Source: Spirochaetia bacterium
GTDB taxonomy: Bacteria; Spirochaetota; Leptospiria; Turneriellales; JAOUOS01
Direction of reading: 5' to 3'
Assembly (NCBI GenBank): GCA_029880285.1
Contig: JAOUOS010000002.1
Location: forward strand, 1-64,000
Length of the DNA stretch: 64,000 nucleotides
Shown: piece by piece, positions 1-18,269 of the stretch
How positions within the stretch are numbered: the stretch's first letter is position 1
Layout of the letters: each line of letters begins with the position of its first letter
Notes under the pieces: model-generated
Databases searched by the model: none
Seen by the model: only the letters and a program-made list of their open reading frames with translations
Told to the model about the DNA's origin: nothing
Made by a program: the position numbers and the translations under genes

Positions 1-144
1 ATTATTCAAGATAGAGAACCAACAATATCAAGAAATATATTAAATTTTTTGCCTTTTCGTATAGACCATTATTTTGAAAATATTCCAATCGCTTCAGGGG
101 GGTACCATCCTATTAACTCTCCCTATATTATCAGTTCTTTTTAA
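1..144 (+). CDS. 3' end of an unidentified protein (partial at left edge)
   Basis: Frame 1 is open from the window edge to a TAA at 142-144 and encodes about 47 residues ending in PYIISSF. The composition ([20 protein letters not shown]) looks like real protein rather than low-complexity noise, but I recognise no family. It ends convergently with the hybrid kinase on the other strand, with a 14-base overlap of the two 3' ends. Similar tight tail-to-tail junctions occur elsewhere in this window. The start and most of the protein lie outside the window, so the call rests only on the open frame. Confidence 0.45.
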
Positions 145-2794
145 ACCATTTTATTATAATTGACCTTAAAGCTTCTTTAGAAATAGGTTTTGTCATAAAA
201 TCATCCATACCCACATTAATACATTTCTTTTTATCTTCTTCTAATGCTTGTCCTGTAAGAGCAATTATAGGAATATGTTTTTGGCTTATTTTTTCTTTTT
301 CTCTTATTTCAATTGTTGTTTCATATCCGTCTTTTTCGGGCATTTGGCAATCCATAAGAATTAAATCGAAGTCTTTACTTTCAAGCGCTTTTAAGACTTC
401 CTGCCCATTGCTGGCGACATCTACGTGGTATCCCATTTTTTGTATCATTAAAGCGGCAATTTTTTGGTTGGTAAGATCATCTTCTGCAAGCAATATTCTC
501 TTTTTGTTAAAATAATCATCTTCAAATATATTAAACTGAGAAACTAAAATATTTTCTCGTTCTGGTTCTAGTTCTAAAACTTTTAATAATGATGAATAAA
601 GCCTGCTGGCTATTATGGGCCGTGAAATATAACCATGAAAACCCGCTTTTTTTATCTCTTCAGTTTCTATTCTTATTACAAAATCTGAAAGCCAAATTAA
701 TTTTAAATTTTGCAGATCTATCTCGTTTTTCACTCTTTGAGCAAAGCTGAACGCATGTCCATCTGTACCATCAATAACAACAACTGAAAAAGGTTTATTT
801 TCTGCATGAGCTTTCTTCAAGAGCTCTATGGCTTCGTGATTATCACTGGCCCTAGATACAATAAGTTCCTTTGTTGTTAAAGGTGTACAAAGGGCGTTAA
901 ATATTTTTTCTTTTTTACAAACTATTAAAACCCTTATATCTTTAAAACTATATTTCAAATCTGGATTTCTTGCAATCGTTGGTTCATAGGGAAGCGAAAA
1001 TCTAAATATACTGCCTTTGCCTTTTACGCTAGAAACTGTTAACTCGCCATCCATTAATTCAACTAATTTTTTAGAAATTGCCAGCCCTAATCCTGTACCG
1101 CCAAATTTTCTTGTTGTAGAATCATCTTCCTGAACAAAAGAATTAAATATATCATCTACTTTTTTCTCATCAATACCAATACCGGTATCCATAATTTCAA
1201 ATAAAAGTCTGAGATTATTTTGATTTTTTTTCTGAAGGGAAAGCCGAAGACACACTTCGCCTTTTTCGGTAAACTTTATCGCGTTGCCGGTTAAATTATA
1301 TAAAACCTGCCTTATTCGAACAGGATCGCCCTTTACGCGTATAGATACCTCTGAGCTTATAAGACAAATTATTTCTACTTTTTTCTCATAGGCAGATTTA
1401 GCGTACATATCGGCCGTATCTTCAATCATTTTATGAATATTAAAATCAATTTTTTCAATATTCATCTGCTGAGAAATTATTTTTGAAAAATCTAAAATAT
1501 CATTTATAACACGCATTAAAATATCGCCAGACTGGTTAGCCATAGATAAATAATTTTTTTGTTCGGCTGTTAAAGGCGTATCTTCAAGAAGTTGTATCAT
1601 GCCTAAAATTCCGTTCATAGGGGTTCTTATTTCATGACTCATATTGGCTAAAAAACGGGTTTTTGCCTGATCTGCGTTTTCTGCCGCTTCTTTGGCCTTA
1701 AGAAGGGCTTCTTCTCTTTTTCTGGTTTCTTTTTCTGCTTTTTCTCTGGAGTTTTTAATAAGATTTTCTATTTTACCTAAATAAATAAAAAATATTACAA
1801 AAAGAAAAATAAATCCCGCGAAAGTAAATAATAGAGAATTTGTAATTCGGGTTTTCAGCACATTAATTTGACCGGTCATGTTATTAAAAATCATCATCTC
1901 ACCGACAACTTTGCCCGAGACTTCTTTTAAAAGAATATCAGCTGAATAATATATTGTAGAATTAATTGACCAGTTTTCATGTATTTGAATATCATTTTCT
2001 TCGTGAATAGACTTATCATGAAAATTAGAAAGATAGTCGGCTAATCCTAACGGTATTTCATCGAGGGTAGAATCTATAATTACAATATCTTTAAATTCAT
2101 CCCAATTGCCTTTTTTGCCGGTTATACCCAGGCCTTCTTCCCATTTATTACGTTCTAAATTTTTTTTTTCAATTATAAAAATAAAATCAGAACCAACCAA
2201 TGATTGCAACTTAGGCGTAATATGATCAATTTCTTCACCAAGTTCAATATACCCTATGAGCTTATTATTAACAACCCATGGTTTTACCACTCTTAAAGTA
2301 AATGTTCCATACGGACCAAGTTCAATACCATAGCTTACTAAACCTGTAAAGGCCGCTTCTTTCATCGTATGTCTATTAATAATATCAGAATGTTTTTCTT
2401 TATTATGAACTCTTAAAAAAACACGTTTCTCTAAATCCATAAAGTAAAAATGCGTGGTTCTATATTTTTTTCTAAACTCAAGAAAAAAAGGCAGACTTTC
2501 ATAATACAGGTTATTTCTATCTTTTTGTTTAAAATAATTTATAAGATTTTTATTTTTTTCAATACTCTCTAAAAGAGCCTGCAGCAATAAAGCATCGTTT
2601 TTTATTTCAAAATCAAAATGGAACCTCGCGTTTTTTAGTTTCGATATGATACTATCTTTCATATCATCTTTTTCATGGTGATATAAATCAAACGTAAATA
2701 ACCATATTGTAAAAAGAGAAATAATAGTAATGGGCAACAGTACCCTAACTCTTAAATATTCACTTTTAAATTTATTATTTATATGATTATTCAT
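131..2794 (-). CDS. Membrane hybrid sensor histidine kinase (Cache-like sensor, HisKA, HATPase, two receivers)
   Basis: An 887-aa inner-membrane sensor kinase that should autophosphorylate on His and pass phosphate to its own receiver. TM1 is about residues 17-36 and TM2 about 319-339. They enclose a roughly 280-residue periplasmic region resembling a Cache-type ligand sensor. A coiled stretch rich in Lys/Glu/Ala (345-378) leads to HisKA with [12 protein letters not shown] (His387), then HATPase with N-box Asn504, DTGIG (536-540) and GGTGLGL (565-571). The C-terminal receiver (about 766-887) is canonical: acidic EDD at 771-773, Asp815 in LILMDCQMP, Lys in TKP. A middle receiver-like domain (about 619-740) keeps an Asp (VVVIDGTDG) but has lost the acidic pair and has ISRP for TKP, so it is probably degenerate. 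There is no adjacent Hpt gene; the phosphorelay partner is unknown. Confidence 0.9.
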
Positions 2795-2837: not shown

Positions 2838-3491
2838 TTAAATTATATCTTCATAAACGGCAAATTTTATAAGCTCTGCCGCTGTATTTAAGCCTAATTT
2901 TTCCATAATTCTGTATCTGTGAGTTTCTACGGTTCTTTGGCTTATATCAAGTTCACGCGCTACCTGCCTGCTTGTCATCCCCTGCGCCACAAGTTTAATA
3001 ATTTCTATTTCTCTTTTAGTTAAATTTTCTTTTGTATTTTTTGTTACATTCTCATTTTGATAATCATCTAAAATAGTCGGAACAATTTTTTGAGAAATAT
3101 GTTTTTTACCTTTTTGTATGGCTTTTATCGCCGTTAAAAGACTATCGTGAACCTCGGTTTTTAAAAGATAGCCGTCTATACCTTTCGCCATAATTTTTTT
3201 AATATATGTTTTTTGATCGTGTGTTGTTAAAACAAGAATTTTCATTAAAGGATAATTTTTTTTTATTATTTCTGCTGTTTCTATACCATCCATTTTAGGC
3301 ATTGAAATATCAAGTATAGTCATATCGCATTTATTTTTTCTTAAATAGACAAGAAGATCTTCGCCATTTGAAAACTCTTCAGTTACAACTAAACTCTCGT
3401 CTTTCTCTATAAGATTTCTCAAACCCAGCCTGAAGATAGGATGATCGTCAGCTAAGATTATTTTATATTTTTCTTTGGGGGATGATGACAC
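2838..3491 (-). CDS. NarL/FixJ-family response regulator (receiver + LuxR HTH)
   Basis: A 217-aa cytoplasmic transcription regulator. The receiver has the acidic pair in LADDHP, phospho-acceptor Asp61 in MTILDISMPKMDG and Lys in LLKTE. The C-terminal LuxR-type HTH (about 155-212) begins LTKREIEIIKLVAQGMT and contains ISQRTVETHRYRIMEKLGL. Translation most likely starts at a GTG at 3491, preceded on the minus strand by AAGGGA, a good Shine-Dalgarno. The start lies inside the 3' end of the upstream kinase gene (29-base overlap), so the two are probably translationally coupled and form a cognate NarX/NarL-type pair. Target genes cannot be read from the sequence. Confidence 0.92.
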   Translation of the reverse strand: MSSSPKEKYKIILADDHPIFRLGLRNLIEKDESLVVTEEFSNGEDLLVYLRKNKCDMTILDISMPKMDGIETAEIIKKNYPLMKILVLTTHDQKTYIKKIMAKGIDGYLLKTEVHDSLLTAIKAIQKGKKHISQKIVPTILDDYQNENVTKNTKENLTKREIEIIKLVAQGMTSRQVARELDISQRTVETHRYRIMEKLGLNTAAELIKFAVYEDII

Positions 3492-5376
3492 TTATTTTGG
3501 TCCCTTTGTTTTTATTTGAAGAAATATCAAGATTACAGCCGGCTATTTTTGCCCTCTCTTTCATTATATAAAGACCCATGCCCGAACTAATTAATTTTTT
3601 TTCACTTTGAGTTTTATGAATACCCCTGCCATTATCTTCTATATTCAATAAAAATTTATCTTCTTCGTGCTTAAGCAAAATTTTCACTTTACTGGCATTT
3701 GAATGCTTAAGTACATTTGTTAAAGATTCCTGAATTATTCTATATATGTTATTTTCCCACCTTTCGCTAAATAACAAATCTATACCTTGTATTTTAGTTT
3801 CAACAGATATACCTTTTTTAGCCGCTATCTGGCCTGTCAATTGCATTATCGCTCTTTCAAGTCCTAAATTTTTATATCCTATGGGGCTTAATTTTTTTGC
3901 TATTCCTGAAACCTTAAGGGCCAGCTTATCTATCTCTTTTAATATCTGATTAAATTGAGATATATCTATATTTTGAATATTTTTCTCTAACAAATGCTGT
4001 AAATTCATTTTCAATAAAGCCAAAGACTGGCCAAAGTCATCGTGAATTTCCATTGCTATGGCCGCCGTGTTTTTTTCTTCTATATCTATTATTTTTCGCG
4101 AAAGACTTTCAGTTTCTTTTTGATATTTAACTTTTTCTGTTACATCATGAAAAATATTTACCATAGATATTGAACCTCTTAAATTAAGCGGCACTGATAT
4201 TATATCATAAGTCATTCCGTTTAAAGCTATTGCGTCGTACCTTACCGATTTTTTCTTTTTTAATACATCATCTTTCAAGCAAAATTCACATGGTTCTTCT
4301 TTTTGCATTAGCGCCTCGTAGCATAACCTGCTTTTTGCCTTTTTCATTTTTCTATTTATTACCGCATTAGAAAATTGAATTAAATAATTTTCATCAATAA
4401 CACAAATACCTTCATTTGTTTTCGAAAGCCCTTCTATAATTGTACCAAGCCTTTCTTCAGCTTCGTGGGCAATTGTTTTTATTTCTTTTAGATTTTTTTC
4501 TGCCTCTTCTTTTTCAAAAGCTTTTGAAATAATTTGCCCTATAACATAAAGAAGCGCGTAATCTTTTTTTTGAAGAATACCGTTTACGCCTTTTTTTTCA
4601 GCAAAGCCCAAAAAGCCATGTATATTTTTATTTACTACCAGCGGCACAAAGAAAATATTATCAAATTTATTTTTTCTTAAAAAATTCTTCTCAACATCAG
4701 ATATTTTTTTATCTTTTTCTGATATTTGAAAATTTTTCATCTCACGGAGATTTTTTTTAATAAATGTATATTTATGAATATCTATTTTCTTGTATTCTTT
4801 TGAAAACAAACAAATATCCCGCCTGCAGCACTCACTGTATAAATAAAATTCATTACTCAAAGAGGTTTTTTTATATAAAAACAAACATTGAAAAGACGAA
4901 AATTCTAATATTTTTGTTAAAGATTCATGAATTTTATTTTTGATGTCTTTAACTTCTATATTAATAAAATCAGATGAAATTTTTAAAATAAGTTTTTCAA
5001 GTTCAATTTGAAAAGACAACTGGGTTTCTAATTGAATAAATTTTGTGATTTCATTGCCTAATATATAGGCTTTATCATTTTTTTCATCTTCTACCAGCGC
5101 TATTTTTATTTCATAAAACCTTCCGCCTGCGCTTTCTTGATAAGATAAACTTTGTTTTGTTTTAAAAACCTGAATTAGTTTTGTTTTTAAATAACCTATT
5201 GCGTTAGATGTAGATATTTCATCAATGGTTTTGCCTAATAAATCATTTTTATTTTTATGAATTAAGTTACAAAATTTTTTATTGGCATCTATAATGTTAA
5301 AATTCTTATCAATTAATAGAATAATTGCATCAAAATTGTTAAAAAGAACCTGATTTAAATTTTTTAAGTCACGCAT
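3463..5376 (-). CDS. Soluble NarX-type sensor histidine kinase (PAS-GAF-PAS-HisKA_3-HATPase)
   Basis: A 637-aa kinase with no membrane segment. Order: PAS (about 10-115), GAF (about 125-290), coiled linker, second PAS (about 310-412), HisKA_3 with MEIHDDFGQSL (His445), HATPase with NIYRIIQESLTNVLKHS, DNGRG and SSGMGL. The second PAS carries a Cys cluster (LCYEAL, then EPCEFC) of the kind found in some bacterial PAS domains; it could bind metal or respond to redox, which is an inference. ATG at 5376 has AAGGT upstream. The gene overlaps the LuxR-type regulator by 29 bases and should phosphorylate it. Cytoplasmic sensing of an internal signal is likely. Confidence 0.9.
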   Translation of the reverse strand: MRDLKNLNQVLFNNFDAIILLIDKNFNIIDANKKFCNLIHKNKNDLLGKTIDEISTSNAIGYLKTKLIQVFKTKQSLSYQESAGGRFYEIKIALVEDEKNDKAYILGNEITKFIQLETQLSFQIELEKLILKISSDFINIEVKDIKNKIHESLTKILEFSSFQCLFLYKKTSLSNEFYLYSECCRRDICLFSKEYKKIDIHKYTFIKKNLREMKNFQISEKDKKISDVEKNFLRKNKFDNIFFVPLVVNKNIHGFLGFAEKKGVNGILQKKDYALLYVIGQIISKAFEKEEAEKNLKEIKTIAHEAEERLGTIIEGLSKTNEGICVIDENYLIQFSNAVINRKMKKAKSRLCYEALMQKEEPCEFCLKDDVLKKKKSVRYDAIALNGMTYDIISVPLNLRGSISMVNIFHDVTEKVKYQKETESLSRKIIDIEEKNTAAIAMEIHDDFGQSLALLKMNLQHLLEKNIQNIDISQFNQILKEIDKLALKVSGIAKKLSPIGYKNLGLERAIMQLTGQIAAKKGISVETKIQGIDLLFSERWENNIYRIIQESLTNVLKHSNASKVKILLKHEEDKFLLNIEDNGRGIHKTQSEKKLISSGMGLYIMKERAKIAGCNLDISSNKNKGTKISVIIPQRKI

Positions 5377-5642: not shown

Positions 5643-8492
5643 TTATGTGTTTCTTTTTTCACCATATATTTTAAGTACTATTGACATCCCTTCATTGGGT
5701 TTTGAATAGATAGATAAAGTACCATTTATGAGTTTGGCGCGTTCTTTCATAACAGAAAGGCCCATGCCTCTTTTGGAATCTTTAGATTCAAGCTCATCTA
5801 AATTAAAGCCTATGCCGTCGTCTTTAATAGAAAAAAGCAAATTTGCGCCATCTACGTCGCATGAAACAATAACCTTACGCGCTTTAGAATGTTTTAGTAT
5901 GTTTGTAAAAGCTTCCTGCACTATTCTATAAACATGAATATTCCATCTATCTATAAAATATTTTTCTACACAGTCAATATTATAATTTATCATTATACCG
6001 CTTTTCTTTTGAATTTTTTCAAATATCTCTTCTAAGGCATTTTTTAATCCCAGTTTTTGTAAAAAGACAGGGCTTATTTTTCTTGAAAGCTGAGATACCA
6101 TTTTAGCCAATTCGTCAAATAAATTTAATACTTCGGTATATTTATCTTCTTTATAAACCGCACTGTCAATTTCAGAAATAAACGACTGAAGATATAATTT
6201 TAATAAAGCGACATGCTGTCCCAAGCTGTCATGAACCTCTCTTGACAAAACCGCTGAATATTCTTCCTGAAGATTTATTATGCGAAGAGTTAGGTTTTCA
6301 ATCTCTTTTTGTTTTTTTATATTTTCTGTAATATCTCTTGCCGTAAGAAGATAACCCATTTTGTTTTCTTTTTCATTTTTTATGGGCGAAACAATACAGT
6401 CAACTATTCTTTCTTTACCGTCTTTGGGCCTTTCTACCATAAAAGAGATTTCTTTATCAATACCCGTACCAAGAATACTTTTTGTTTTTTCTATATCTGC
6501 CGGTAAGGTACCCCCCATTTCTTGAAGCTTAAAAACTGGTACATTTAACATTTTTTCTCTGCTTACATTTGTAATTCTTTCTGCTTCTTTATTCGCGTAT
6601 TTTATTAAAAATTTGCTATCAATGGCTATAAAAGCGGTATTAGAAGCAGAAGATAAAATGCTATTTAAAAAAGCTGTTTTTTCGGCTGCTTCGGCTTCTG
6701 CTTTTTTCTTGTCGTTAATATCTACTAATACAACCAGATGCCCTATAGGCTTACCGGCTTTATTTTTAATTAAAGAAACGCTGGTATTGCCCCATACAAT
6801 TTTTTTTTTCTTTGTTATATATTTTTTATCGCGGCTATAAGCTGTTATTTCGCCTTTCTTCATTTTGTTTAATAAATCAATATCGTTCTTAATTTCATCG
6901 GGATGTGTAACATCTTTAATTCCTTTTTTCATCATTTCTTTAACTGTGTATTCTAAAAAATAAGCAAAACGCGTGTTCACTTTTAAAGCCCTGCCTTCAG
7001 AATTGGCAAACAACATTCCTACCGAAGCCTGAGCAAACGCGGCCTGAAGGCGAATTTCTGTTTCATCAAGAATTTCTTGAGTTTTTTTTCTTATGGCTTC
7101 GTTTCGTATTGTCTTAACGGCAAAACTTAAATTTTTTGATATTTCTCTTAAAAAATCAATTTCTGTTTTATCATACGCGTCTTCTTCTGAAGAATATATA
7201 TTTAACGAGCCAATTGTTTTCCCTTCATAATTTATGGGCAAAGCAATATTAGAGCGATAACCTCTTTTTTCAGCTTCTTTTCTCCACAAATTAAAATTTT
7301 TATTATTTTCATACGATCTAACAACCACCGTACTGCCTGTTCTAATAGCGGTACCTGTAGGTCCCTGGCCCCGTTCAGAATTATCCCAATAAATATTAAC
7401 AAGTTTTAAATATCCTTCTTCATGCCCCGCGAAGGCAATAGGTTTAACTGTTTTCTTTTTATTATTTTGGGCGATACCTACCCATGCCATTCTATATCCG
7501 CCGGTATTTATTATTATTTCACAGATTTTTTTATATAAAGAAATTTCATTTTTTTCATATATTATCGCTTCATTAATTTTACTAATGGTTTCACGAACTC
7601 TATATTCTCTTTCTAATTTTATTTTATTTTGTTTTCTTTCAAAAGCGGCGGCAAATATTTTTGCCAATAAAGCTAACAAAGTAAAATCATCTGAATCTAT
7701 GCTTATATTTGGTTTTTTACTTTTAAATAATATGAATCCGCATAATTTTTCATCTAAATACATAGGCACTAAAAAAATATCTTTTCTAATTAAAGATTTT
7801 TTTTTGCCGGTATATTCTTTTTGATTATTAGCGTTTATGGTATGTACTTCTTTAAAATTTGCTGCCTTGCTTTGCAAATCTATAAATTCGTCTTTTGTGA
7901 TAATTTCTGGCGTTATACTAAAGTTCCATGTGTATATTTTTGAAAAAGCTTCTTTTTTTTCTTGATAATAATAAACAACGGCGTTAGAAAACCCCGCGAA
8001 ATCGGCGCCAAGCTCTAAAGCGTATTTTGCTTCTTTGTCAATTTTATCTACAGGTGAAAAAATTAATTGAGATGAAATTTCAAGAAGTATTCTTTCAAAC
8101 TCACCTCTAAACTGGTTTTTTATGTCAAGCTCTACTCTACTGGTAATGTCGCGGGATAAAATAATATAGTTTATTATTTTTTTTCGGCTGTTAAGTACAG
8201 GAGTAATTATAACATCGCTCCATCTGCGTTCATAAAAAGACTCGTACCTTATTGATTTTTTTTCTTTTTTAACTTTATTTAGCTGATTTAATCTTTGCTC
8301 TAAAGTTTTTCCTGTAAATATTTCATTAACATTTTTGCCTATTATCTCTTTTTCTTTTTTATTTAATATTTTTAAAAGAGAACGGCTAACCTGTACATGA
8401 TTAAAATTTTCATCCAATACTACAAAAATTTGATCAGGTATATTTGAAAAAATATTTAATAGATTTTCATTGAGTATTTCAAGTTTTTTCAT
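5643..8492 (-). CDS. Large soluble NarX-type sensor kinase (PAS-GAF-GAF-PAS-PAS-HisKA_3-HATPase)
   Basis: A 949-aa cytoplasmic multi-sensor kinase. Order by eye: PAS (about 8-120), GAF-like (128-285), GAF (300-465, with GGYRMAWVGIA and the GPTGTAIRTG stretch typical of kinase-linked GAFs), PAS (475-598), PAS (600-725), HisKA_3 with REVHDSLGQHVALLK (His754), HATPase with HVYRIVQEAFTNILKHS, DDGIGF and RGMGLSVMKERA. It has no adjacent LuxR-type regulator. Instead it diverges from the receiver-EAL gene at 8752, whose receiver is of the NarL type this kinase class uses, so that protein is a plausible partner. A candidate promoter lies at 8548-8574. Confidence 0.9.
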   Translation of the reverse strand: MKKLEILNENLLNIFSNIPDQIFVVLDENFNHVQVSRSLLKILNKKEKEIIGKNVNEIFTGKTLEQRLNQLNKVKKEKKSIRYESFYERRWSDVIITPVLNSRKKIINYIILSRDITSRVELDIKNQFRGEFERILLEISSQLIFSPVDKIDKEAKYALELGADFAGFSNAVVYYYQEKKEAFSKIYTWNFSITPEIITKDEFIDLQSKAANFKEVHTINANNQKEYTGKKKSLIRKDIFLVPMYLDEKLCGFILFKSKKPNISIDSDDFTLLALLAKIFAAAFERKQNKIKLEREYRVRETISKINEAIIYEKNEISLYKKICEIIINTGGYRMAWVGIAQNNKKKTVKPIAFAGHEEGYLKLVNIYWDNSERGQGPTGTAIRTGSTVVVRSYENNKNFNLWRKEAEKRGYRSNIALPINYEGKTIGSLNIYSSEEDAYDKTEIDFLREISKNLSFAVKTIRNEAIRKKTQEILDETEIRLQAAFAQASVGMLFANSEGRALKVNTRFAYFLEYTVKEMMKKGIKDVTHPDEIKNDIDLLNKMKKGEITAYSRDKKYITKKKKIVWGNTSVSLIKNKAGKPIGHLVVLVDINDKKKAEAEAAEKTAFLNSILSSASNTAFIAIDSKFLIKYANKEAERITNVSREKMLNVPVFKLQEMGGTLPADIEKTKSILGTGIDKEISFMVERPKDGKERIVDCIVSPIKNEKENKMGYLLTARDITENIKKQKEIENLTLRIINLQEEYSAVLSREVHDSLGQHVALLKLYLQSFISEIDSAVYKEDKYTEVLNLFDELAKMVSQLSRKISPVFLQKLGLKNALEEIFEKIQKKSGIMINYNIDCVEKYFIDRWNIHVYRIVQEAFTNILKHSKARKVIVSCDVDGANLLFSIKDDGIGFNLDELESKDSKRGMGLSVMKERAKLINGTLSIYSKPNEGMSIVLKIYGEKRNT

Positions 8493-8547
8493 TTCAGCTA
8501 TATATCTATCAATAAAAATGATGTCTTATTAATATTATAAAATTACA

Positions 8548-8574: not shown

Positions 8575-8660
8575 TATATTTTTAACCTTTTTTATGACGA
8601 AAATTGGGCTCATTAAAAAACCTTAAAAAGCATATAAATTATTTTATATCAACTAAAACT

Positions 8661-8704
8661 ACGAAGTTTTACTTACAAAATTGTCGTAAAATTCACGTAT
8701 TGAC
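8661..8704 (+). promoter_or_regulatory. Duplicated upstream element, copy 1 (probable operator)
   Basis: These 44 bases match 10020-10063 at 42 positions, and both copies end in the TTGAC of a -35 box. The element contains an imperfect inverted repeat: ACGAAGTTTTAC at 8661-8672 and GTAAAATTCACGT at 8686-8698, with core TTTTAC/GTAAAA. Conservation stops near the -35 box, which suggests an activator or repressor site common to the EAL gene and the chemotaxis operon. I noticed no third copy in the window. Confidence 0.7.
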
Positions 8705-8727
8705 TTTTTATTTTTTCTGTGTATTAT
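8700..8727 (+). promoter_or_regulatory. Promoter of the receiver-EAL gene
   Basis: TTGACT (8700-8705) and TATTAT (8722-8727) are 16 bases apart. This places transcription start near 8734, so a possible GTG start at 8719 would fall inside the promoter; the ATG at 8752 is the more likely start codon. Confidence 0.6.
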
Positions 8728-8751
8728 TTAGCACATAACATTAAAGAATTT

Positions 8752-9987
8752 ATGCAAAAAACTGAAAATAAAATTTATAAAATAATTATTGCCGATGACC
8801 ATCAATTGTTCCGCGAGGGCATCAAAAAATTAATTTATAACAAACCAAATTTAGAAGTCTCTGGCGAAGCCTCTGACGGCAAAGAACTCATTGACCTCTT
8901 AAGAAATACCGCCTGTGATCTTATACTGCTTGATTTATCTATGCCAAACATAAACGGCCTAGCGGCTTTAGATATTATTAAAAAAAAGTATCCAAGCTTA
9001 AAAATAATTATAGTTACCATGTACCATGAAAATGGATTTTTTGATCAAACAATAGAAAAAGGCGCCGACGGCTTTATGCTTAAAACCCAAATGTTTTCTA
9101 AACTTACAGAAGCCGTAGAAATAATCATGAACGGCGGCCATTATTATGACGCTTTGTCTATTAACCATGATTTAGATGATGAAAAAATGGATAATAAAAT
9201 TTTACAAAACAATATTAATTATTTTAATAACACTTTTGAAAGAGACGTTACCAGCGCTATAAAAGATAACGAATTTAATGTTTATTACCAGCCAATTCTC
9301 TCTACATCAACTAATAAAATTACAGGCGTAGAGGCTTTAATGCGCTGGTACAAAAATGGTCAAATACTTTCACCGCAAGATTTTATAGAAAGAATAGAAA
9401 AAACAAAACAAATAATTGAAATAGGTAAAGTAATTTTAGAAAAATCTCTTACACAGGTTAAAAAATGGCACGATATGGGTTATTCTAATTTATCTGTCTC
9501 GGTAAATTTTTCGTCAGTTCAATTTCAAAGTCCCCATATTGTTAAAAACATAAAAGATGCTCTAGAAAGAACAAACCTTTGTCCCAAAAAATTAAGAATT
9601 GAAATTACCGAAACCTTGGCAATGCAAAACCTAAACTTTACCAAAAAGATATTAGGCGAATTAAGAAATCTGGGTGTTACTATTTTGTTAGACGATTTTG
9701 GATGCGGTCATTCTTCTTTAAGATATTTACAGCATTTTCCCGTGCATGGTCTTAAAATAGACAGGTCTTTTATTGAAAGCATAGACACCAACGAAGTAAA
9801 CCGTTCTTTAACCGAAGGCATAATTACTATAGCTAAACAATTAAAATTAAAAACCGTTGCCGAAGGCGTAGAAAACGAAAAACAACTTAAAGTAATAAAA
9901 GATAAAAAATGCGAAGAATACCAGGGGTTTTATTTTTCAAAACCTCTTTCGGCAGAAGAATTTGAAACCATGCTAACAGAGGCATGA
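8752..9987 (+). CDS. Receiver-EAL cyclic di-GMP phosphodiesterase
   Basis: A 411-aa cytoplasmic protein. The N-terminal receiver is of NarL type (IIADDHQLFREG, Asp in LILLDLSMPNING, Lys in MLKTQ), but the usual LuxR HTH is replaced by an EAL domain. The EAL residues look complete: VEALMRW, EITET, DDFGCGHSS, LKIDRSFI and AEGVEN, so active hydrolysis of c-di-GMP is expected. I chose ATG 8752 over an upstream GTG at 8719 because the latter overlaps the -10 box. The gene diverges from the multi-sensor kinase and shares its upstream element with the following chemotaxis operon, which suggests joint control of c-di-GMP level and taxis. Confidence 0.9.
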   Translation: MQKTENKIYKIIIADDHQLFREGIKKLIYNKPNLEVSGEASDGKELIDLLRNTACDLILLDLSMPNINGLAALDIIKKKYPSLKIIIVTMYHENGFFDQTIEKGADGFMLKTQMFSKLTEAVEIIMNGGHYYDALSINHDLDDEKMDNKILQNNINYFNNTFERDVTSAIKDNEFNVYYQPILSTSTNKITGVEALMRWYKNGQILSPQDFIERIEKTKQIIEIGKVILEKSLTQVKKWHDMGYSNLSVSVNFSSVQFQSPHIVKNIKDALERTNLCPKKLRIEITETLAMQNLNFTKKILGELRNLGVTILLDDFGCGHSSLRYLQHFPVHGLKIDRSFIESIDTNEVNRSLTEGIITIAKQLKLKTVAEGVENEKQLKVIKDKKCEEYQGFYFSKPLSAEEFETMLTEA

Positions 9988-10019
9988 TGAGACATAATGA
10001 CTTTATTTATAATAAAAAT

Positions 10020-10063
10020 ACGAAGTTTTACTTACAAAAATATCGTAAAATTCACGTATTGAC
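10020..10063 (+). promoter_or_regulatory. Duplicated upstream element, copy 2 (probable operator)
   Basis: This is the second copy of the 44-base element at 8661-8704, with two mismatches in the centre (ATA for TTG). The inverted-repeat arms are unchanged. It lies between the EAL gene and the parA-like gene that opens the chemotaxis operon. Confidence 0.7.
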
Positions 10064-10087
10064 GGTTTATTTTTTTTATGATATAAA
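10059..10087 (+). promoter_or_regulatory. Promoter of the chemotaxis operon
   Basis: TTGACG (10059-10064) and TATAAA (10082-10087) are 17 bases apart, a sigma-70 type arrangement. The first gene follows with AAAGGGA at 10105-10111 and ATG at 10120. No other comparably good promoter was noticed before the terminator at 20279, although internal ones cannot be excluded. Confidence 0.65.
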
Positions 10088-10119: not shown

Positions 10120-10914
10120 ATGGGTAAAATAATAACTATAGCCAATCAAAAAGGCGGCGTTGGTAAAACAACAACAGCTTTAACACTTGGTTTATGCTTG
10201 AGCCAAAACCAAAAAAAAGTATTACTGCTAGATTTAGACCCCAGCGCGTCTTTAAGCATGCAGTTTGTTTTTAATAAAAACGAAACCCGAAAAACAATTT
10301 CAGACTTTATTAAAACAGAAAACACTAACTTTGAAACTATATTTAATGAATATATTATTAAAACAAATTATGATAATTTATGGCTCATGCAGTCTCATGA
10401 GAGACTTTATAAAATTGAAAAAAACCTGAGCAAAGGCAATAAAATACGCGGATTTTTATTAAAAAATAAATTATCAGAAATTAAAAATAAATTTGACTAT
10501 ATTATTATTGATACTTCGCCTACTTTTGGATCATTGCTAATAAACGCCCTTGTTTCAAGCTCTTTGGCAATAATTCCCATACAAAATGAATTTTCTGTTT
10601 TTCATGGATTAAATTTATTTATATCTACAATTGAAAAAATAAAAAATAGCCTTGAAAAAGATTTTGAATACAAACTTCTTCTTACCATGTATGATAAAAA
10701 TATAGACGACGGTGAATTATACCGCCGCAAAATACAAGGCGCTTTTGAAGATATCATGTTTAAAACAGTCATTGACTATGACTCTACCATTAAAGCGGCC
10801 AGCAACTCGGGAGAATGTCTTTTAACTTTTGCCGCCGATTCTGCCGGCGCGAAACAATATAAAAGTTTTTCAGAAGAAATAGAAGAAGCAGAAATGGTAA
10901 CCATAGGCGGTTAA
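10120..10914 (+). CDS. ParA/MinD-family ATPase, probably positions chemosensory arrays (ParC-like)
   Basis: A 264-aa cytoplasmic ATPase. The deviant Walker [10 protein letters not shown] spans 11-19 (Lys11 and Lys16), the A' box is [10 protein letters not shown] and the Walker B box is [11 protein letters not shown]. There is no N-terminal DNA-binding extension and no parB gene, so chromosome segregation is unlikely. It is the first gene of a chemotaxis operon and is followed after 22 bases by an extended CheW-like protein. In Vibrio-type systems ParC (ParA family) and ParP (CheW-like) localise arrays to the pole; the same role here is an inference from context. Confidence 0.85.
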
Positions 10915-10936: not shown

Positions 10937-11881
10937 ATGCAAACAACACTAGAAAAAGAAACAGTAAAAGATGAAAGCAGACTTGATAAAATGATAGGAT
11001 TCGTTGCCGATAAGATCGGTAAAAAAGTTCCCGAGGTAAGTAAAGTAAACATAAAAAAAGAAATACATTTACCAAAAGAAGCAGCTTTCTTTGAAGCTAA
11101 AAATGAGAATGAAAACAATAAAAAATTAAAAGATCAAAATGAAAATATATTAAAAGAAGCAATAACATCTGAACCTTTAAATGCGCCCTCTGAAGATTAC
11201 AGCGATATTGAAGATGACGACTTCAAAGTATCTTCTTCATACAGCAGTGAAACAAATGATGCCGAAGGCTTTTTCTTAAGCGACCTTGGCGGCATGCACA
11301 ATATGACAGATGAAGAAGAAACTGACGATTTTGTTTTTATAGGTTTTAAAATGAAAAACGAAGAATACGCTCTTAATGTTCTTCAAGTAAAAGAAATCAC
11401 AAACATGCCCCAAATTGCCAAAATGCCCAATACGCCTGATTTTATTGAAGGCGTTATAGAATTAAGAGATAACTTTTTACCCGTTTTAGATTTAAGAAAA
11501 AGATTTCAAATGGGTAAAGCCGAGTTAAACAGCGAATCAAAAATAATAATTATCGATTCGGGTAAAAAAGAAATAGGACTTATAGTAGAATCTGTCACAG
11601 AGGTTGTAAGAGCAGATAATCAATTTGTTGAAAAAGCGCCGGGAATGGTTTCAGGCATAGAAAAGAAATATATTTCGGGCCTATTAAACCAAAACGGTAA
11701 AACCACCGTACTCTTAGACCTCGAGAAAATTTTATCGGCCCAAGAGCTTGCCAAGCTAATAGAACTAGAAAATGCCGAAAAAGAAAAGATTGAGATAAGT
11801 CAAAACAAGCAAGAAAAAAATCTTACAGAAACTCAAAACCAAAAGCCCGCCCCAAAGGGCGGGCTTCTTATTGAGGCATAA
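10937..11881 (+). CDS. CheW-domain protein with long acidic N-terminal extension (CheW or ParP-like adaptor)
   Basis: 314 aa. The first 130 or so residues are charged and probably disordered (many Glu, Asp, Ser). A CheW domain then follows (about 132-280) with DFVFIGFKMKNEEYALNV, VEGV-type motif FIEGVIELRDNFLPVLDLRKRF and GLIVESVTEVV. The tail is Glu/Lys/Gln-rich. CheW couples receptors to CheA; the extension and the preceding ParA-like gene make a ParP-like localisation role possible. The start is well set by AAAAGGAG before ATG 10937. The last codons form a strong hairpin at 11843-11866. Confidence 0.85.
   Translation: MQTTLEKETVKDESRLDKMIGFVADKIGKKVPEVSKVNIKKEIHLPKEAAFFEAKNENENNKKLKDQNENILKEAITSEPLNAPSEDYSDIEDDDFKVSSSYSSETNDAEGFFLSDLGGMHNMTDEEETDDFVFIGFKMKNEEYALNVLQVKEITNMPQIAKMPNTPDFIEGVIELRDNFLPVLDLRKRFQMGKAELNSESKIIIIDSGKKEIGLIVESVTEVVRADNQFVEKAPGMVSGIEKKYISGLLNQNGKTTVLLDLEKILSAQELAKLIELENAEKEKIEISQNKQEKNLTETQNQKPAPKGGLLIEA
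11843..11866 (+). promoter_or_regulatory. RNA hairpin inside the 3' end of the cheW-like gene
   Basis: A perfect 10-bp stem, AAGCCCGCCC paired with GGGCGGGCTT, has a 4-base CAAA loop. It ends 15 bases before the end of the gene and lies about 48 bases upstream of the MCP start. No U-tract follows, so it is not a standard terminator. It may protect or process the mRNA, or partly attenuate transcription within the operon. Confidence 0.6.
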
Positions 11882-11914: not shown

Positions 11915-14098
11915 ATGTTTAGTTTCAAAAATATAAAAATAAGACCAAAATTATTAGCGCTATTTTTAATAGTAGGGCTTTTACCTTTGGCAGGTATAGG
12001 AATTTACAGCGTAAAGTTGGCCAATGACGCTATTTTTAAAAACGCGTTTAACCAGTTAGAGGCCATAAAGCAGATTAAGAAAAACCAAATTACGTCTTTT
12101 TTTAACGAAAGAAAAGGCGATATTGTGGTTCTTTCTTCAAACGAAGAAGTGATAAATGCTCTTAATAATATGAGTGCAGCGTTTTCGAAAGAAAATAATA
12201 AAATAAACGGCCCAAAATATAAAGAAGCAGAAAAAGAACACGGCCCGTGGCTTCAAAAATACCAGAAAGAATACGGTTACTATGATGTTTTCTTAATGGA
12301 CCTAAAAGGTAATGTTATTTATACAAATTCGAAAGAAAGCGATTTAGGCGAAAATTTAATTCACGGCAAATTAAAATCAAGCGGCCTCGCGAAAGTATTT
12401 AATATGGCCATAAAAGAAGGCTTTGGCTTTGACGATTTTGAACCTTACGCGCCTTCTAACGGCGAACCGGCATCCTTTATAGCGCATCTTGCCGAAAGAA
12501 ACGGCAAAGCCGAGGGTGTTGTGGGACTTCAAGTTTCTCTAAAGGCCATAAACAATATTATGCAAGAAAGAACCGGTATGGGTAATACAGGCGAAACATA
12601 TCTTGTAGGACCCAATAAACGCATGAGATCAGATTCTTACCTTGACCCTAAGGGTCACAGTGTAAATGCCTCATTTGCCGGTACAATAGAAAAAAACGGC
12701 GTAGATACCGAGGCCAGCAGCGAAGCTTTAGCGGGTAAAGCCGACAAAAAAATTGTCATAGATTATAACGGCAACCCTGTTTTATCGGCATACGCGCCCT
12801 TAAATATATTTGAAAAAGTAACATGGGCCATCATGGCAGAAATTGACGAAGCCGAAGTAAAACTGCCCATTGACGCATTGAATCTTTCAATTATTATTTT
12901 CGCGGTAATCATAGCAGGTATCGTAGCATTCATTGCTTTTGTTACAGCAGGCGGCATTGCCAAGCCAATTCAAAAAGGTGTAAAATCGCTTGAAAAAATA
13001 GCTGACGGTGATCTTTCAGAAAATATTGAAGCTAAAACGCAGGACGAAATTGGCGATTTATACCGCGCCATGCAAAGACTTCATAAAGCAACCAACGAAA
13101 TGGCCTATTCCGCTTCGCAAATTGCAAACGGCGATCTTACGGTAAAAATAAATCCGCGGTCTGAGAAAGATGTTCTTGGTATATCCCTTTCTGATATGTC
13201 AAATAAGCTTTCTATGACAATGGAAGAAATAATAGGCAGCATTGAAAACATGAACAACGTGGCCCAGCAGTTAAGCGCCACATCAGAAACTATGAATTCT
13301 TCATCGGCCGAACAAAGCGCAAACGCCGAAGAAATATCTGCCTCTCTTGAAGAAATGGTGGCCAATATCGACTTAAGCAATAAAAACACCGGCGAAACCA
13401 GTAAAATAGCATCCAGCTCATCTGGTGAGGCAATACAAGGCGGCGACGCGGTTGCCAAAACGGTAGAAGCCATGAAAAAAATTGCCAAAGAAATTGTTAT
13501 TGTTCAAGAAATTGCCGAGCAGACAAACTTATTGGCCCTAAACGCGGCTATTGAAGCAGCGCGAGCAGGCAAGCACGGCAAAGGTTTCGCGGTTGTGGCC
13601 TCTGAAATTCGTGAATTAGCAGAAAAAAGCCAGGTATCGGCAAAAGAGATTAGCGGCTTAACCGACAGTTCAATGACCGTATCAGAACAAGCCGGCAAAC
13701 TGCTTGAAGCCATGGTACCAAACATTCAAAGAACAGCCGACTTAATTAAAGAAGTAAGCAGTGCGGCTCAGGAACTTAAAAATTCTGCAGATTCAATTAA
13801 TGAATCTATGGAAACTTTTAACCAAACAAGCCAGACTAACGCGGCTGCTTCTGAAGAGTTAGCGGCAACAGCCGAAGAAATGAGTTCACAGGCGCAGAAT
13901 CTATATGACACTATTTCATTCTTTAAAGTAAACGGCAGCTCAACAAAACAAAAAACACAGGCGTCTTTTAAAAACAAAGGCAACGGTGGTTCTTCTGTTC
14001 ATAAAGAAGGCAATGGCGGTTCTTCTTCTCATAGTGAGGGCAACGGCGGTTCAAAAGTAAAAGACACTGTAAAAGAAAAAGAATTTGTAAAGTTTTAA
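11915..14098 (+). CDS. Methyl-accepting chemotaxis protein with dCache sensor and C-terminal tether
   Basis: A 727-aa transmembrane receptor. TM1 is about residues 13-33, the dCache-type periplasmic domain about 38-315 (with [13 protein letters not shown] and MRSDS), TM2 about 323-347, then HAMP (about 348-400), a second HAMP-like segment and the signalling domain with the hairpin tip [21 protein letters not shown] and [16 protein letters not shown]. After the coiled coil the tail has three 10-residue GNGGSS-type repeats (688-717) and ends EFVKF. That ending fits the aromatic-x-x-aromatic pattern of CheR-binding pentapeptides. AAAAGGAGA precedes ATG 11915. The ligand is unknown; many dCache receptors bind amino acids or other small solutes. 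Confidence 0.95.
13976..14065 (+). repeat. Three 30-bp tandem repeats encoding a flexible receptor tail
   Basis: Three exact 30-base units (13976-14005, 14006-14035, 14036-14065) encode [20 protein letters not shown] and [10 protein letters not shown]. Gly/Asn/Ser-rich sequence of this sort is a flexible linker between the coiled coil and the C-terminal EFVKF. Copy number could vary between strains. Confidence 0.8.
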
Positions 14099-14130: not shown

Positions 14131-15756
14131 ATGAATGTAAACGCTATAAGACAGAAAGGTTATAAAATTTACCAGGTAAAGGTATCTGTCAATGAAGAGA
14201 ATAAATTCCCTTCATTGACGGGTATTGACGCCTTTCGACTGCTGAATAAAAAAGAAATTTTTGGCGAACCTTATGAATATTTAACATGCCGCCCTAATCT
14301 TTTTAACCCGGCAGAAAGAGAAGTTGTAGATACAGTTTATGAGTTTAATCACTTTTTTGCCTCTACCTTGAAACTGGATGTCATAAATAAAAACATTCAG
14401 AAAATTAATTTAACGGGACACTTAAAATCATTATCTGTTGAAGAATTTTCAGGTGAAATAATCGATCAAAGAAGTCATAGCACCGACAGAAGAGAATCGG
14501 CCGCTTTAAAAGAGTTTCAATTTGATGAATCTGAGCAAAAAGAAACCAAAAGCATTAGAATTGATCTTGAAAGAATTGAAGAATTCGGTGACCTTGTGGG
14601 TGAGCTTATTATAAATAAAATTCAAATTGAATCGCATATACATGAGCTTTTAAAAGAAATAAAACATCAAAGTAAAGCTTCTATCAATTTGACAACCGCC
14701 AGTAAACACCTTCAGCTTATTTCTGGCAAGTTAAGGGATCTTTCTTTAAGCATAAGAATGGTGCCTATCTCTACTTTATTTAGAAAGTATCCGCGTATAT
14801 TAAGAGAAATTGCTAAAAAACAAAATAAAAAAGTAAAACTTATTATTCAGGGCGAAGATACCGAACTTGACAAAGCTATAATTGAAAAAATAAACGATCC
14901 GCTATTGCACATGATAAGAAATTCAATTGACCATGGTATTGAAAATGAAACTGATAGAAGAAAAAGAAAAAAAGATACCATGGCCAGACTTCTAATAAAA
15001 GCTTATTATGAAGGCGATAGAATTATAGTAGCGGTAGAAGATGACGGACGCGGATTAAATCTTGAAAAAATTAAGAAAAAAGCCCTTGAGAAAAATTTAA
15101 TAAACAAAGACAGAGCTTCTCAACTTACAGACAAAGAACTAATGAATTTAATTTTTAGTCCCGGTTTTTCTACTGCTGATAATGTTACCGATATATCAGG
15201 CCGCGGAGTGGGTCTTGATGTCGCGTTAAATAATATAACCAAACTAAACGGAACCATTGAAGTAGAATCAAGAGAAGGCGTAGGCACAAGATTTTTAATG
15301 AAACTGCCTCTTACGCTTTCTATTATACAAGCTCTTCTTGTAAGAGAAGGCGGCGAAACCTACGCGATACCGTTATTTACTGTTCACCGAACCATGACGC
15401 TTGATAAAGAAAAAATAAGAACAATGGGAAGATACGAGGTTTTAGAGCAGGAAGGAGAAGTTCTGCCTGTTTTTGATTTGCAAAAACTTCTTGAAATAAA
15501 AAGAGAAAGCGAAAGGCAAAACCCGTTTTTAATAGAACTTTCAGGTTCAGACGGTAAATTTGGCCTTATAGCCGAAGAAATTTTGGGCCAGCAGGAAATT
15601 GTAATAAAACCGTTAAGCGAATACATAGGCATTGTAGACGGCATAAGCGGAGCCACAATACTTGGCAACGGCAGGGTCAGCCTTATTCTTGATGTAAAGG
15701 CCATAGGTAATAAGGCAAGAAAAAATATTGAAAAAATGGTAGAATTAAAAGCCTGA
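14131..15756 (+). CDS. cheA: CheA kinase core lacking the Hpt (P1) domain
   Basis: A 541-aa histidine kinase of the chemotaxis array. Residues 1-95 form a small domain that is not an Hpt (no HxxKG motif) and could be a P2-like or novel domain. Dimerisation P3 is about 145-225. The P4 ATPase is about 226-395 with N-box HMIRNSIDHGIE (260-271), DDGRGLN (304-310), FSPGFST and GRGVGLDVA (358-366). The P5 CheW-like domain is about 396-535 with GGETYAIPL. Without P1 it cannot autophosphorylate in cis. The next gene supplies an Hpt domain, so trans-phosphorylation is the natural reading, as in the Rhodobacter sphaeroides CheA4/CheA3 pair. AAAAGGAAA precedes ATG 14131. Confidence 0.92.
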   Translation: MNVNAIRQKGYKIYQVKVSVNEENKFPSLTGIDAFRLLNKKEIFGEPYEYLTCRPNLFNPAEREVVDTVYEFNHFFASTLKLDVINKNIQKINLTGHLKSLSVEEFSGEIIDQRSHSTDRRESAALKEFQFDESEQKETKSIRIDLERIEEFGDLVGELIINKIQIESHIHELLKEIKHQSKASINLTTASKHLQLISGKLRDLSLSIRMVPISTLFRKYPRILREIAKKQNKKVKLIIQGEDTELDKAIIEKINDPLLHMIRNSIDHGIENETDRRKRKKDTMARLLIKAYYEGDRIIVAVEDDGRGLNLEKIKKKALEKNLINKDRASQLTDKELMNLIFSPGFSTADNVTDISGRGVGLDVALNNITKLNGTIEVESREGVGTRFLMKLPLTLSIIQALLVREGGETYAIPLFTVHRTMTLDKEKIRTMGRYEVLEQEGEVLPVFDLQKLLEIKRESERQNPFLIELSGSDGKFGLIAEEILGQQEIVIKPLSEYIGIVDGISGATILGNGRVSLILDVKAIGNKARKNIEKMVELKA

Positions 15757-15780
15757 TAATATTGAATAAAGGATAAATTT

Positions 15781-16758
15781 ATGTCAAAAGAAACTTCAAA
15801 TCAAAAAAAAGGCTCATCTCTTTTAGATAAGATAGACTATTCTTACTTAAAAGATTTTACAGACGCGGCAGAAGAACACCTTCAAGAAATTGAAGAAGAA
15901 CTTCTTGAAATTGAAAAAAATCCCGAAAACTTAAAACCTGTTGAAAACATTTTCAGATGTTTTCACTCAATAAAAGGTGATTCAGCATCGGTAGGACTTT
16001 CGCCCATTAGTGAGGTTACACATGAAACCGAAGAAATTTTCGATCTAATTCGCGAGAATAAAATGAAAATTTCAAAAGTTCTTATAGACGCGGTCTTTGA
16101 GACTATAAATGTCATAAGATATTTTATGACAACGGTATCTCAAAAAAAAGAACCACAGCAGAATATTAGCTGGCTTCTTGAAAAGTTTAATTATATTAAA
16201 ACTACCCCTTTTGAAGAATTAGACGAAAACAAAGACGATTTTGGTTTCGAATTAGCGCAAAAAGAAAATGAAACTACTGACATAGACGATGACAACGAAT
16301 TAGATGAATCGAGCATTAATACCTATGTTATGTTTCGTGTGGGAAAAATTAACTGCGCCTTACCTCTTTATAAAACAGAAGAAGTCGTTGAAAACCTTGC
16401 TTTAACAAGAATTCCATTTATAGAAGATTTCATAGACGGAGCCGTTAATTTAAGGGGTAGCATTGTACCAGTTGTTAATTTAAGAAAAAAATTTAATATG
16501 CCCGCTTCAATAGATGTATATAATAAAATTTTAATAACAAGTTTTAATAATAATAAAATTGGTTTAAATGTTGATGAAGTTTTCGCCATAGAAGAAATTC
16601 TTCCCGAAAAAATTTCTGAACCCGGCGGCGATTTAATCGCTCTTGATAATTCTTTAGTTTCAGGAGTATTTAAGTCTCACGGTGTTTTGGTTTTTTTACT
16701 AAGTTATGAAATGGTTTTAGATAAAAGTAAAAAAGCAAATTTAAACTTAAACAACTAA
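15781..16758 (+). CDS. Hpt-CheW fusion protein (detached P1 domain of CheA)
   Basis: 325 aa. The N-terminal Hpt/P1 domain (about 18-135) has the phospho-acceptor motif CFHSIKGDSASVGL with His62. An acidic linker (about 145-182) is followed by a CheW domain (about 183-318) with TYVMFRVGKINCALPL, FIDGAVNLRGSIVPVVNLRKKF and IGLNVDEV. The P3 and P4 domains are absent. The protein is therefore likely to be phosphorylated in trans by the preceding CheA core and to dock in the array through its CheW part. It is the probable phosphodonor for the CheY at 16831. AAAGGA precedes ATG 15781; the gap after cheA is 24 bases. Confidence 0.92.
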   Translation: MSKETSNQKKGSSLLDKIDYSYLKDFTDAAEEHLQEIEEELLEIEKNPENLKPVENIFRCFHSIKGDSASVGLSPISEVTHETEEIFDLIRENKMKISKVLIDAVFETINVIRYFMTTVSQKKEPQQNISWLLEKFNYIKTTPFEELDENKDDFGFELAQKENETTDIDDDNELDESSINTYVMFRVGKINCALPLYKTEEVVENLALTRIPFIEDFIDGAVNLRGSIVPVVNLRKKFNMPASIDVYNKILITSFNNNKIGLNVDEVFAIEEILPEKISEPGGDLIALDNSLVSGVFKSHGVLVFLLSYEMVLDKSKKANLNLNN

Positions 16759-16830: not shown

Positions 16831-17205
16831 ATGAGTATAAGAAACGTGCTTTTGGTAGACGATTCTATTTTAACCCAAAAACAGCTTTCAAAAATTTTAG
16901 AAGAAGGCGGCTACAGGGTAAAAGCAATCGCGCAAAACGGTGTTGAAGCCGTAAACAAATTTAAAGAGTTAAAAGACGAAGTTGATCTTGTAACACTTGA
17001 TATCACAATGCCCGAAATGGACGGCATTGAGGTTTTAGAGAAAATTTTTACCATTAATCCTCATGCAAAGGTTATAATGGTAAGCGCCATGGGCAAAGAA
17101 AACACTGTTCAACGGTGCCTTTCAATGGGGGCAAAAAGTTTTATAATAAAACCTTTTTATAAATCAAAAATATTGGAGACAATTGAACATGTCGGCGCCC
17201 AGTAA
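16831..17205 (+). CDS. cheY: CheY single-domain response regulator
   Basis: A 124-aa receiver with no output domain. Acidic pair in LLVDDSILTQKQL, phospho-acceptor Asp in LVTLDITMPEMDG, Thr/Ser in VSAMG, Lys in IIKPF. The VDD-S-x-x-x-x-K pattern and position after the Hpt-CheW gene fit CheY, which carries the signal from the array to the flagellar switch or another motor. AAAAGGAG precedes ATG 16831. Its end overlaps the first cheX by 17 bases, so the two are probably translationally coupled. Confidence 0.93.
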   Translation: MSIRNVLLVDDSILTQKQLSKILEEGGYRVKAIAQNGVEAVNKFKELKDEVDLVTLDITMPEMDGIEVLEKIFTINPHAKVIMVSAMGKENTVQRCLSMGAKSFIIKPFYKSKILETIEHVGAQ

Positions 17206-17686
17206 TGCTACAAGCGAAGCAGTAATTGAAGATCTAATTTCAAAGATAAACGAAAATACGCTGCCTTTATCTACCATGAAAGAAAGAGGCAGGGTGGTAT
17301 TAGGTGACTTTATTAGATCTGAAATTGTAAGCTATGAAAACAAAGAGCACACTCTAGAAAAGTATAAACATACTTATGAGCTTGATATTCACGGCAGTCT
17401 TAACGGTAAAATCTATTTAAATTTAAATTCAGATATAGCCGATTACCTTTCAACTGTTCTTTTCGGAGAATCAGAAGAAGAATTAAGAGACGAAGCCATG
17501 AAAGAAACGCTGAATATTTTCAGCGGTCATATGTCGGCTTTTCTGCATGAACATGATTACGATATTGACATAGGCGTGCCATCTGCCAGTGCACACGACA
17601 TTGTCACATCAAAACCTAAACTAAAACTGCTTTTTAGGTATATGACAAACCAGCAGATGATGCAGTTTTTTATGGAAATAGACTAA
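17189..17686 (+). CDS. cheX: CheX-like CheY phosphatase, paralog 1
   Basis: 165 aa. CheX family proteins dephosphorylate CheY-P and act as dimers. The catalytic ExxN motif is present as KETLN within DEAMKETLNIFSGH, the usual setting. I take ATG 17189 as start, because GGAG at 17174-17177 is well placed for it; a TTG at 17183 in the same frame is less likely. The start lies within the last codons of cheY. A second, clearly related copy follows 29 bases downstream. Confidence 0.85.
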   Translation: MSAPSNATSEAVIEDLISKINENTLPLSTMKERGRVVLGDFIRSEIVSYENKEHTLEKYKHTYELDIHGSLNGKIYLNLNSDIADYLSTVLFGESEEELRDEAMKETLNIFSGHMSAFLHEHDYDIDIGVPSASAHDIVTSKPKLKLLFRYMTNQQMMQFFMEID

Positions 17687-17715: not shown

Positions 17716-18228
17716 ATGACTGTAACAAATAAAACAGTTCCTCAAGAGTACCAGAACATAGAAGATCTGATTGACAAAATAAATCATGAAATGCCCCCCT
17801 TATTTCGCCTGAAAGAAAGGGGGCGACTGGTTCTTGGCGAATTTGTTAATTCAAATATATTCAGTTATAATAAAAAAGACCAGCAATTTAAAGAATATCA
17901 GCTTACCTACTCGCTTGATTTTTTTGGATCGCTGCAAGGTAAAATATTTTTAAATATTGAACCCGATATAGCGGTACATATCACCAAATTATTATTTGGG
18001 GATGATTTAGATGACCCTATATCTCTTGTAAATGAAGCTATGAAAGAAACTTTGAATATTTTCAGCGGACATCTTGTAGCTTTTTTACATGAATTTAATC
18101 ATGATCTTGATATAGGCGTACCCTCGCCCGTAAAACATAACTTTTTAGAATCTAAGTGTAGAAAAAAAATTCTTTTTAGATTTTTATCAAATGATCATGT
18201 ATTGCAATTTTTAATGGAAATTCATTAA
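17716..18228 (+). CDS. CheX-like CheY phosphatase, paralog 2
   Basis: 170 aa and plainly homologous to the preceding protein along its whole length (shared LKERGR-VLG-F, YSLDFFGSLQGKIFLN, EAMKETLNIFSGH, DLDIGVPSP, ILFRFLSND). The ExxN motif is intact, so both copies could be active. AAAAAGGAAAA lies upstream of ATG 17716. A tandem pair in one operon implies either separate CheY targets, a heterodimer, or a recent duplication under selection. Confidence 0.85.
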   Translation: MTVTNKTVPQEYQNIEDLIDKINHEMPPLFRLKERGRLVLGEFVNSNIFSYNKKDQQFKEYQLTYSLDFFGSLQGKIFLNIEPDIAVHITKLLFGDDLDDPISLVNEAMKETLNIFSGHLVAFLHEFNHDLDIGVPSPVKHNFLESKCRKKILFRFLSNDHVLQFLMEIH

Positions 18229-18269
18229 AAAAATTTTGAAGAAAACTAAATGTGAAAGGAGATTTAAAA

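Follow-up and report, generated by a model that had tools for sequence, protein, structure and literature searches.

Gene content of the locus

The window, by which we mean the whole stretch of 64,000 nucleotides of spirochaete DNA analysed here, comes from contig C13 of a genome of 3.3 Mb that is 92% complete (G000). The genes that concern us are arranged divergently, with two-component signalling genes on the reverse strand and, on the forward strand, a gene for a receiver-EAL protein (REC-EAL) followed by a chemosensory operon:

131–2794, reverse strand: hybrid histidine kinase, a conserved member of the cluster
2838–3491, reverse strand: NarL/LuxR-type response regulator (REC and GerE helix-turn-helix), leading candidate for the element-binding protein (see below); its orthologue in G001 is 63% identical and lies at the same position
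3463–5376, reverse strand: PAS histidine kinase (HisKA_3)
5643–8492, reverse strand: PAS/GAF histidine kinase, divergent from REC-EAL, with an orthologue in G001
8752–9987, forward strand: REC-EAL, 411 aa, predicted c-di-GMP phosphodiesterase with a NarL-type receiver (Pfam Response_reg 6e-26, EAL 1e-67)
10120–10914, forward strand: ParA-like ATPase, first gene of the operon (Pfam AAA_31 2e-47, CbiA)
10937–11881, forward strand: CheW
11915–14098, forward strand: methyl-accepting chemotaxis protein (MCP)
14131–15756, forward strand: CheA without Hpt (P1) domain, 541 aa (H-kinase_dim, HATPase_c and CheW found, no Hpt)
15781–16758, forward strand: Hpt-CheW protein, 325 aa, predicted to supply the missing phosphotransfer domain (Hpt 1e-13, CheW 7e-26)
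16831–17205, forward strand: CheY-like single receiver
17183–17686, forward strand: CheX-like protein 1 (match at the cut-off)
17716–18228, forward strand: CheX-like protein 2
18252–20249, forward strand: chemoreceptor with a NIT (nitrate/nitrite sensing) domain, last gene of the operon (NIT 1e-60)

The operon thus encodes a split CheA, with the Hpt-less core and the separate Hpt protein side by side (14131–16758), and homologous CheA/Hpt-CheW pairs occur in G001 as well as in the other spirochaetes G008, G012, G059, and G178. A ParA-type protein is also encoded in the CheA3/CheA4 operon of Cereibacter sphaeroides. This cytoplasmic chemosensory operon of Cereibacter (Rhodobacter) sphaeroides, the one example treated in detail in a paper that mentions the existence of separate Hpt genes, likewise combines a CheA devoid of Hpt with a distinct Hpt-CheW protein (PMC10782961). 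The two systems differ in that the short Hpt-CheW protein of the window lacks the long middle region of CheA3 and in that the window belongs to a spirochaete with a REC-EAL gene under the same putative control element. In VieA-type and other receiver-EAL phosphodiesterases, a phosphorylatable receiver is joined to an EAL domain within a two-component locus, as here; unlike VieA, the EAL protein of the window carries no helix-turn-helix, which sits instead on the neighbouring regulator. Elsewhere, the genome encodes two further CheA proteins, so that the cluster represents one of three chemosensory systems, and it also contains five flagellin-type genes. The NIT domain of the last chemoreceptor hints at the signal of this particular pathway.

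A duplicated element adjoining two putative promoters

Two near-identical elements precede REC-EAL and the operon, each running into a sigma-70-like promoter:

8660–8704, forward strand: element copy 1, including TTGAC of the -35 box, upstream of REC-EAL; conserved in G001 (C28:10049-10093)
8700–8727, forward strand: putative promoter P1, sigma-70-like, TTGACT (8700–8705), 16 nt, TATTAT (8722–8727); a consensus match only (10/12 positions)
10019–10063, forward strand: element copy 2, including TTGAC of the -35 box, upstream of ParA and the chemosensory operon; conserved in G001 (C28:11402-11446)
10059–10087, forward strand: putative promoter P2, sigma-70-like, TTGACG (10059–10064), 17 nt, TATAAA (10082–10087); a consensus match only

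A sequence-only reading of this DNA had described a duplicated 44-bp element, and we recovered the same identity: 8661–8704 and 10020–10063 match in register (offset 1359) at 42 of 44 positions, differing at two, and inclusion of the identical bases 8660 and 10019 brings the element to 43 of 45. The accompanying statement that both copies reach TTGAC of a -35 box at the same offset also holds, since the hexamers can be read at 8700–8705 and 10059–10064. Between the intergenic regions preceding EAL and ParA, the best 45-base match scores 43, whereas the maximum over 300 dinucleotide shuffles is 32. Promoter-like sites number 11 versus 9.8 expected in shuffles, and the element adjoins a usable sigma-70 match at both loci. 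For REC-EAL we prefer the start ATG 8752, since the GTG at 8719 given in a mechanical list of open reading frames overlaps the -10 box of P1. As the gap between EAL and ParA spans 132 bp and contains no predicted terminator, P2 may be internal to a longer transcript.

Conservation in a second genus and anatomy of the element

The only other genome of the family available for comparison, G001, belongs to a different genus and is 91% complete; its proteins are 55–66% identical to those of the window where measured (EAL 55%, ParA 59%). Its gene order follows that of the window. One strand holds the hybrid kinase, the NarL-type regulator, and the PAS/GAF kinase, among which the window has an additional kinase; the divergent side holds REC-EAL, ParA, CheW, MCP, CheA, Hpt-CheW, CheY, and two CheX. 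G001 possesses exactly two copies of the element, one before the orthologue of REC-EAL and one before that of ParA, each with an unchanged offset from the -35 box. The four copies agree at 32 of 45 columns (TACG.A.TT.TAC.TACA....T.TCGTAAAAT...C.TATTGAC), many of them G or C in a region of only 18–28% GC, and the best 45-base intergenic matches between the two genomes score 36–39, compared with at most 32 in shuffles. Recurrence of the same pair at orthologous promoters of another genus, with this degree of invariance, marks the element as a selected control site and places the original observation on firmer ground than the sequence-only reading could. With the same sequence and offset retained while the flanks have diverged, the element is, by comparative sequence criteria, a conserved cis-regulatory promoter site, some 40 bp long and continuous with the -35 boxes of P1 and P2. 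Certain letters are lineage-specific and common to both copies of one genome (TACGAAG in G000, TACGTAT in G001), a pattern that would arise if the two sites kept pace with a single evolving protein or if one converted the other.

The claim that sequence outside the element is not conserved holds only approximately: between the genomes the 45 bases alone stand out from the intergenic DNA, but within G000 ungapped likeness of the two loci stretches over 85 nt at 85%, T-rich spacer included. This longer likeness, together with the direct contact with the -35 box, is what might be expected of an extended promoter read by RNA polymerase itself, such as an UP element or the target of an alternative sigma factor, without any regulator of its own. 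We consider this improbable: the numerous invariant G and C columns in such AT-rich DNA and the presence of only two copies per genome speak against it, and an alternative sigma factor would in addition require a conserved -10 box, whereas the -10 regions vary among the four copies.

An imperfect inverted repeat had also been reported for the element; this repeat is weak. The 40-bp dyad centred at position 20.5 has 51% complementary pairs in the four known copies, which is significant if the centre is chosen in advance (p = 0.009) and loses significance over all possible centres (p = 0.47); a perfect inverted repeat is not supported. All four copies contain TAC at positions 1, 11, and 15 and GTA at position 27, with a further GTA at position 38 in three of them, and these motifs can be read as putative inward-facing half-sites one helical turn apart. 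By inspection, the TAC motifs are TACGAAG/TACGTAT, TACTTAC/TACGTAC, and TACAAAA. Direct repeats that flank a single gene and contain a feeble dyad could alternatively derive from local duplication, or serve as recombinase targets for deletion of EAL, and have no promoter function. Such an origin appears very improbable, given that both copies persist in another genus in register with the -35 box while their intergenic surroundings have diverged, and that the cluster genes examined include no recombinase.

Copy number in the genome and in other bacteria

The genome-wide motif search proposed by the sequence-only reading retrieves just the two known copies from the 3.3 Mb of G000 at up to three mismatches, whether the query is the 45-mer, the inner 25-mer, or the 21-mer next to the -35 box. 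A sequence profile built from the four copies of both genomes gives the two in G000 54.6 and 52.1 bits, the next match in that genome being at the level of noise (14.9 bits, E 0.11). The missing 8% of the genome aside, these results exclude both a large regulon and a dispersed repeat; for the two copies to be repeats that lie at these promoters by chance, many others would have to be concentrated in that 8%, which we regard as next to impossible. A wider regulon based on the next-best profile matches was likewise rejected, as these are noise. Both genomes being incomplete, a few further targets may nevertheless be missing. No copy in the proper orientation was found at the operon of the NarL/LuxR-type regulator itself, a point that counts against the model proposed below.

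Elsewhere in the class, 46 further genomes lack the element, and a scan covering 84,980 species matched nothing but the contig of G001 itself (JAOUOT010000024.1, a Spirochaetia metagenome bin). The best profile match elsewhere, in G014 (18.5 bits, E 0.01), overlaps the end of a coding sequence. Literature searches retrieved no description of the locus or the motif.

The promoters of split-CheA operons in other families, those of G008 (L122 8480-8511) and G012 (L123 7601-7642), carry TACGTA and TAAATCC motifs before the -35 box. The one in G008 (about 8480–8511, TACGTATTTaggcaaGTAAATCCGCCAATTGAC) beats all 300 shuffles when compared with the copies of G001, yet gives p = 0.06–0.15 with those of the window; p-values range from 0.01 to 0.17 for G012 and from 0.03 to 0.40 for a candidate in G007. 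The motifs of G008 and G012 may be diverged forms of the element, a suggestive reading given these inconsistent p-values, and we treat all three candidates only as a lead because none rises above noise in profile scores.

The candidate regulator

Synteny between the two genomes extends to the divergent genes for the kinase and the NarL-type regulator, and among the syntenic genes examined we recognised no DNA-binding protein other than this adjacent regulator. Its recognition helix is nearly identical in G000 and G001 (SQRTVETHRYR[IL]MEKL). In both genomes, the receiver of REC-EAL is closest, among full-length regulators, to that of the cluster regulator (in G000, 40% identity and 104 bits, versus 31% and 78 bits for the next one), and this kinship suggests a shared kinase. 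G001 also contains a lone receiver-sized frame (C42:74008-74379), 50% identical to the REC-EAL receiver (8752–9165) and closer to it than the regulator's, which is perhaps a remnant or a phosphate sink.

Homologous regulators accompany chemosensory operons in other genomes of the order, G012 belonging to another family. In G012, one with 40% identity lies directly upstream of a CheX-CheW-CheA-HptCheW operon and, in G007, one with 47% identity is found inside a CheA operon with HisKA_3-like kinases. This association is independent of the element and constitutes no proof of binding. At its end, the CheA operon of G007 (L124 9439-14193) groups a HisKA_3-like kinase with the regulator and three CheY-like receivers, an uncommon meeting of classical two-component and chemosensory genes.

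The arrangement recalls the operators of NarL/FixJ (LuxR-type) regulators upstream of -35 boxes, which are also promoter-proximal with short TAC/GTA repeats about one helical turn apart, and in such systems the genes for a HisKA_3-type kinase and a REC-GerE regulator adjoin, as the regulator and histidine kinase genes do in the window. By contrast, none of the TAC motifs fits, by inspection, the E. coli NarL heptamer TACYYMT, and the sequence of the element is unique to two genera. The GacA/UvrY (SirA) box, TGTAAG-N6-CTTACA, offers another comparison, since its CTTACA half occurs in three of the four copies; unlike that box, the element has no full palindrome and its ACA ends point inward. The recognition helix of the candidate (TVETHRYRIMEKL) presumably resembles that of UvrY/GacA, a resemblance that we take as a lead.

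A proposed local two-promoter regulon

We propose that a dedicated transcription factor occupies the stretch that leads up to the -35 box (about -76 to -36), where an activator could contact RNA polymerase, and that it would switch on P1 (REC-EAL) and P2 (ParA-CheW-MCP-CheA-HptCheW-CheY-CheX operon) together. The factor would most likely be the NarL/LuxR-type regulator, phosphorylated by a neighbouring kinase that may also phosphorylate the related receiver of REC-EAL. In that case, a single signal would simultaneously yield more chemosensory array and less c-di-GMP.

The components of this proposal differ in strength. Shared control of P1 and P2 by one factor is very likely, judging from the conserved pair of sites, and to this extent the earlier suggestion of a single regulator for c-di-GMP breakdown and the taxis operon gains support from the restriction of the element to two copies and the occurrence of the same pair in G001. 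Its reach is narrower than first thought: both promoters serve one contiguous, co-oriented cluster with no predicted terminator between them, which indicates one local regulon and not a genome-wide link. That the factor is this particular NarL/LuxR-type regulator is an evenly balanced matter, and for the statement as a whole, comprising the shared site, a dedicated activator, and this regulator as the factor, we lean slightly in favour.

The same site and the same co-control would be seen if the bound protein were another transcription factor encoded elsewhere, either a response regulator or a one-component protein. This is a real possibility, though we hold it less probable than not: the misfit with the NarL heptamer noted above and the existence of further NarL-type regulators in the genome (G000:C13:212717, C56:118916) are in its favour, and promoter-proximal synteny is itself no proof of binding, whereas confinement of the site to the cluster suits a cluster regulator, and the adjacent protein stands alone as a recognised DNA-binding candidate there. 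A broader version of our proposal with the neighbouring regulator, in which the HisKA_3-type kinase drives both the NarL-type regulator (through the duplicated sites) and REC-EAL, the third, split-CheA array and the lowering of c-di-GMP form one switch, and an older form of the site may precede split-CheA operons in other spirochaete families, is speculative and rather unlikely to hold in full.

Local regulons of two promoters under a neighbouring regulator are of a common kind in bacteria, and this instance is new. The proper claim should be that of a local two-promoter regulon joining one chemosensory system and its predicted phosphodiesterase, with functions deduced from sequence. In uncultured spirochaetes, it would tie the breakdown of c-di-GMP to chemosensory gene expression by a conserved and testable link, for which both the site and a candidate regulator can now be named.
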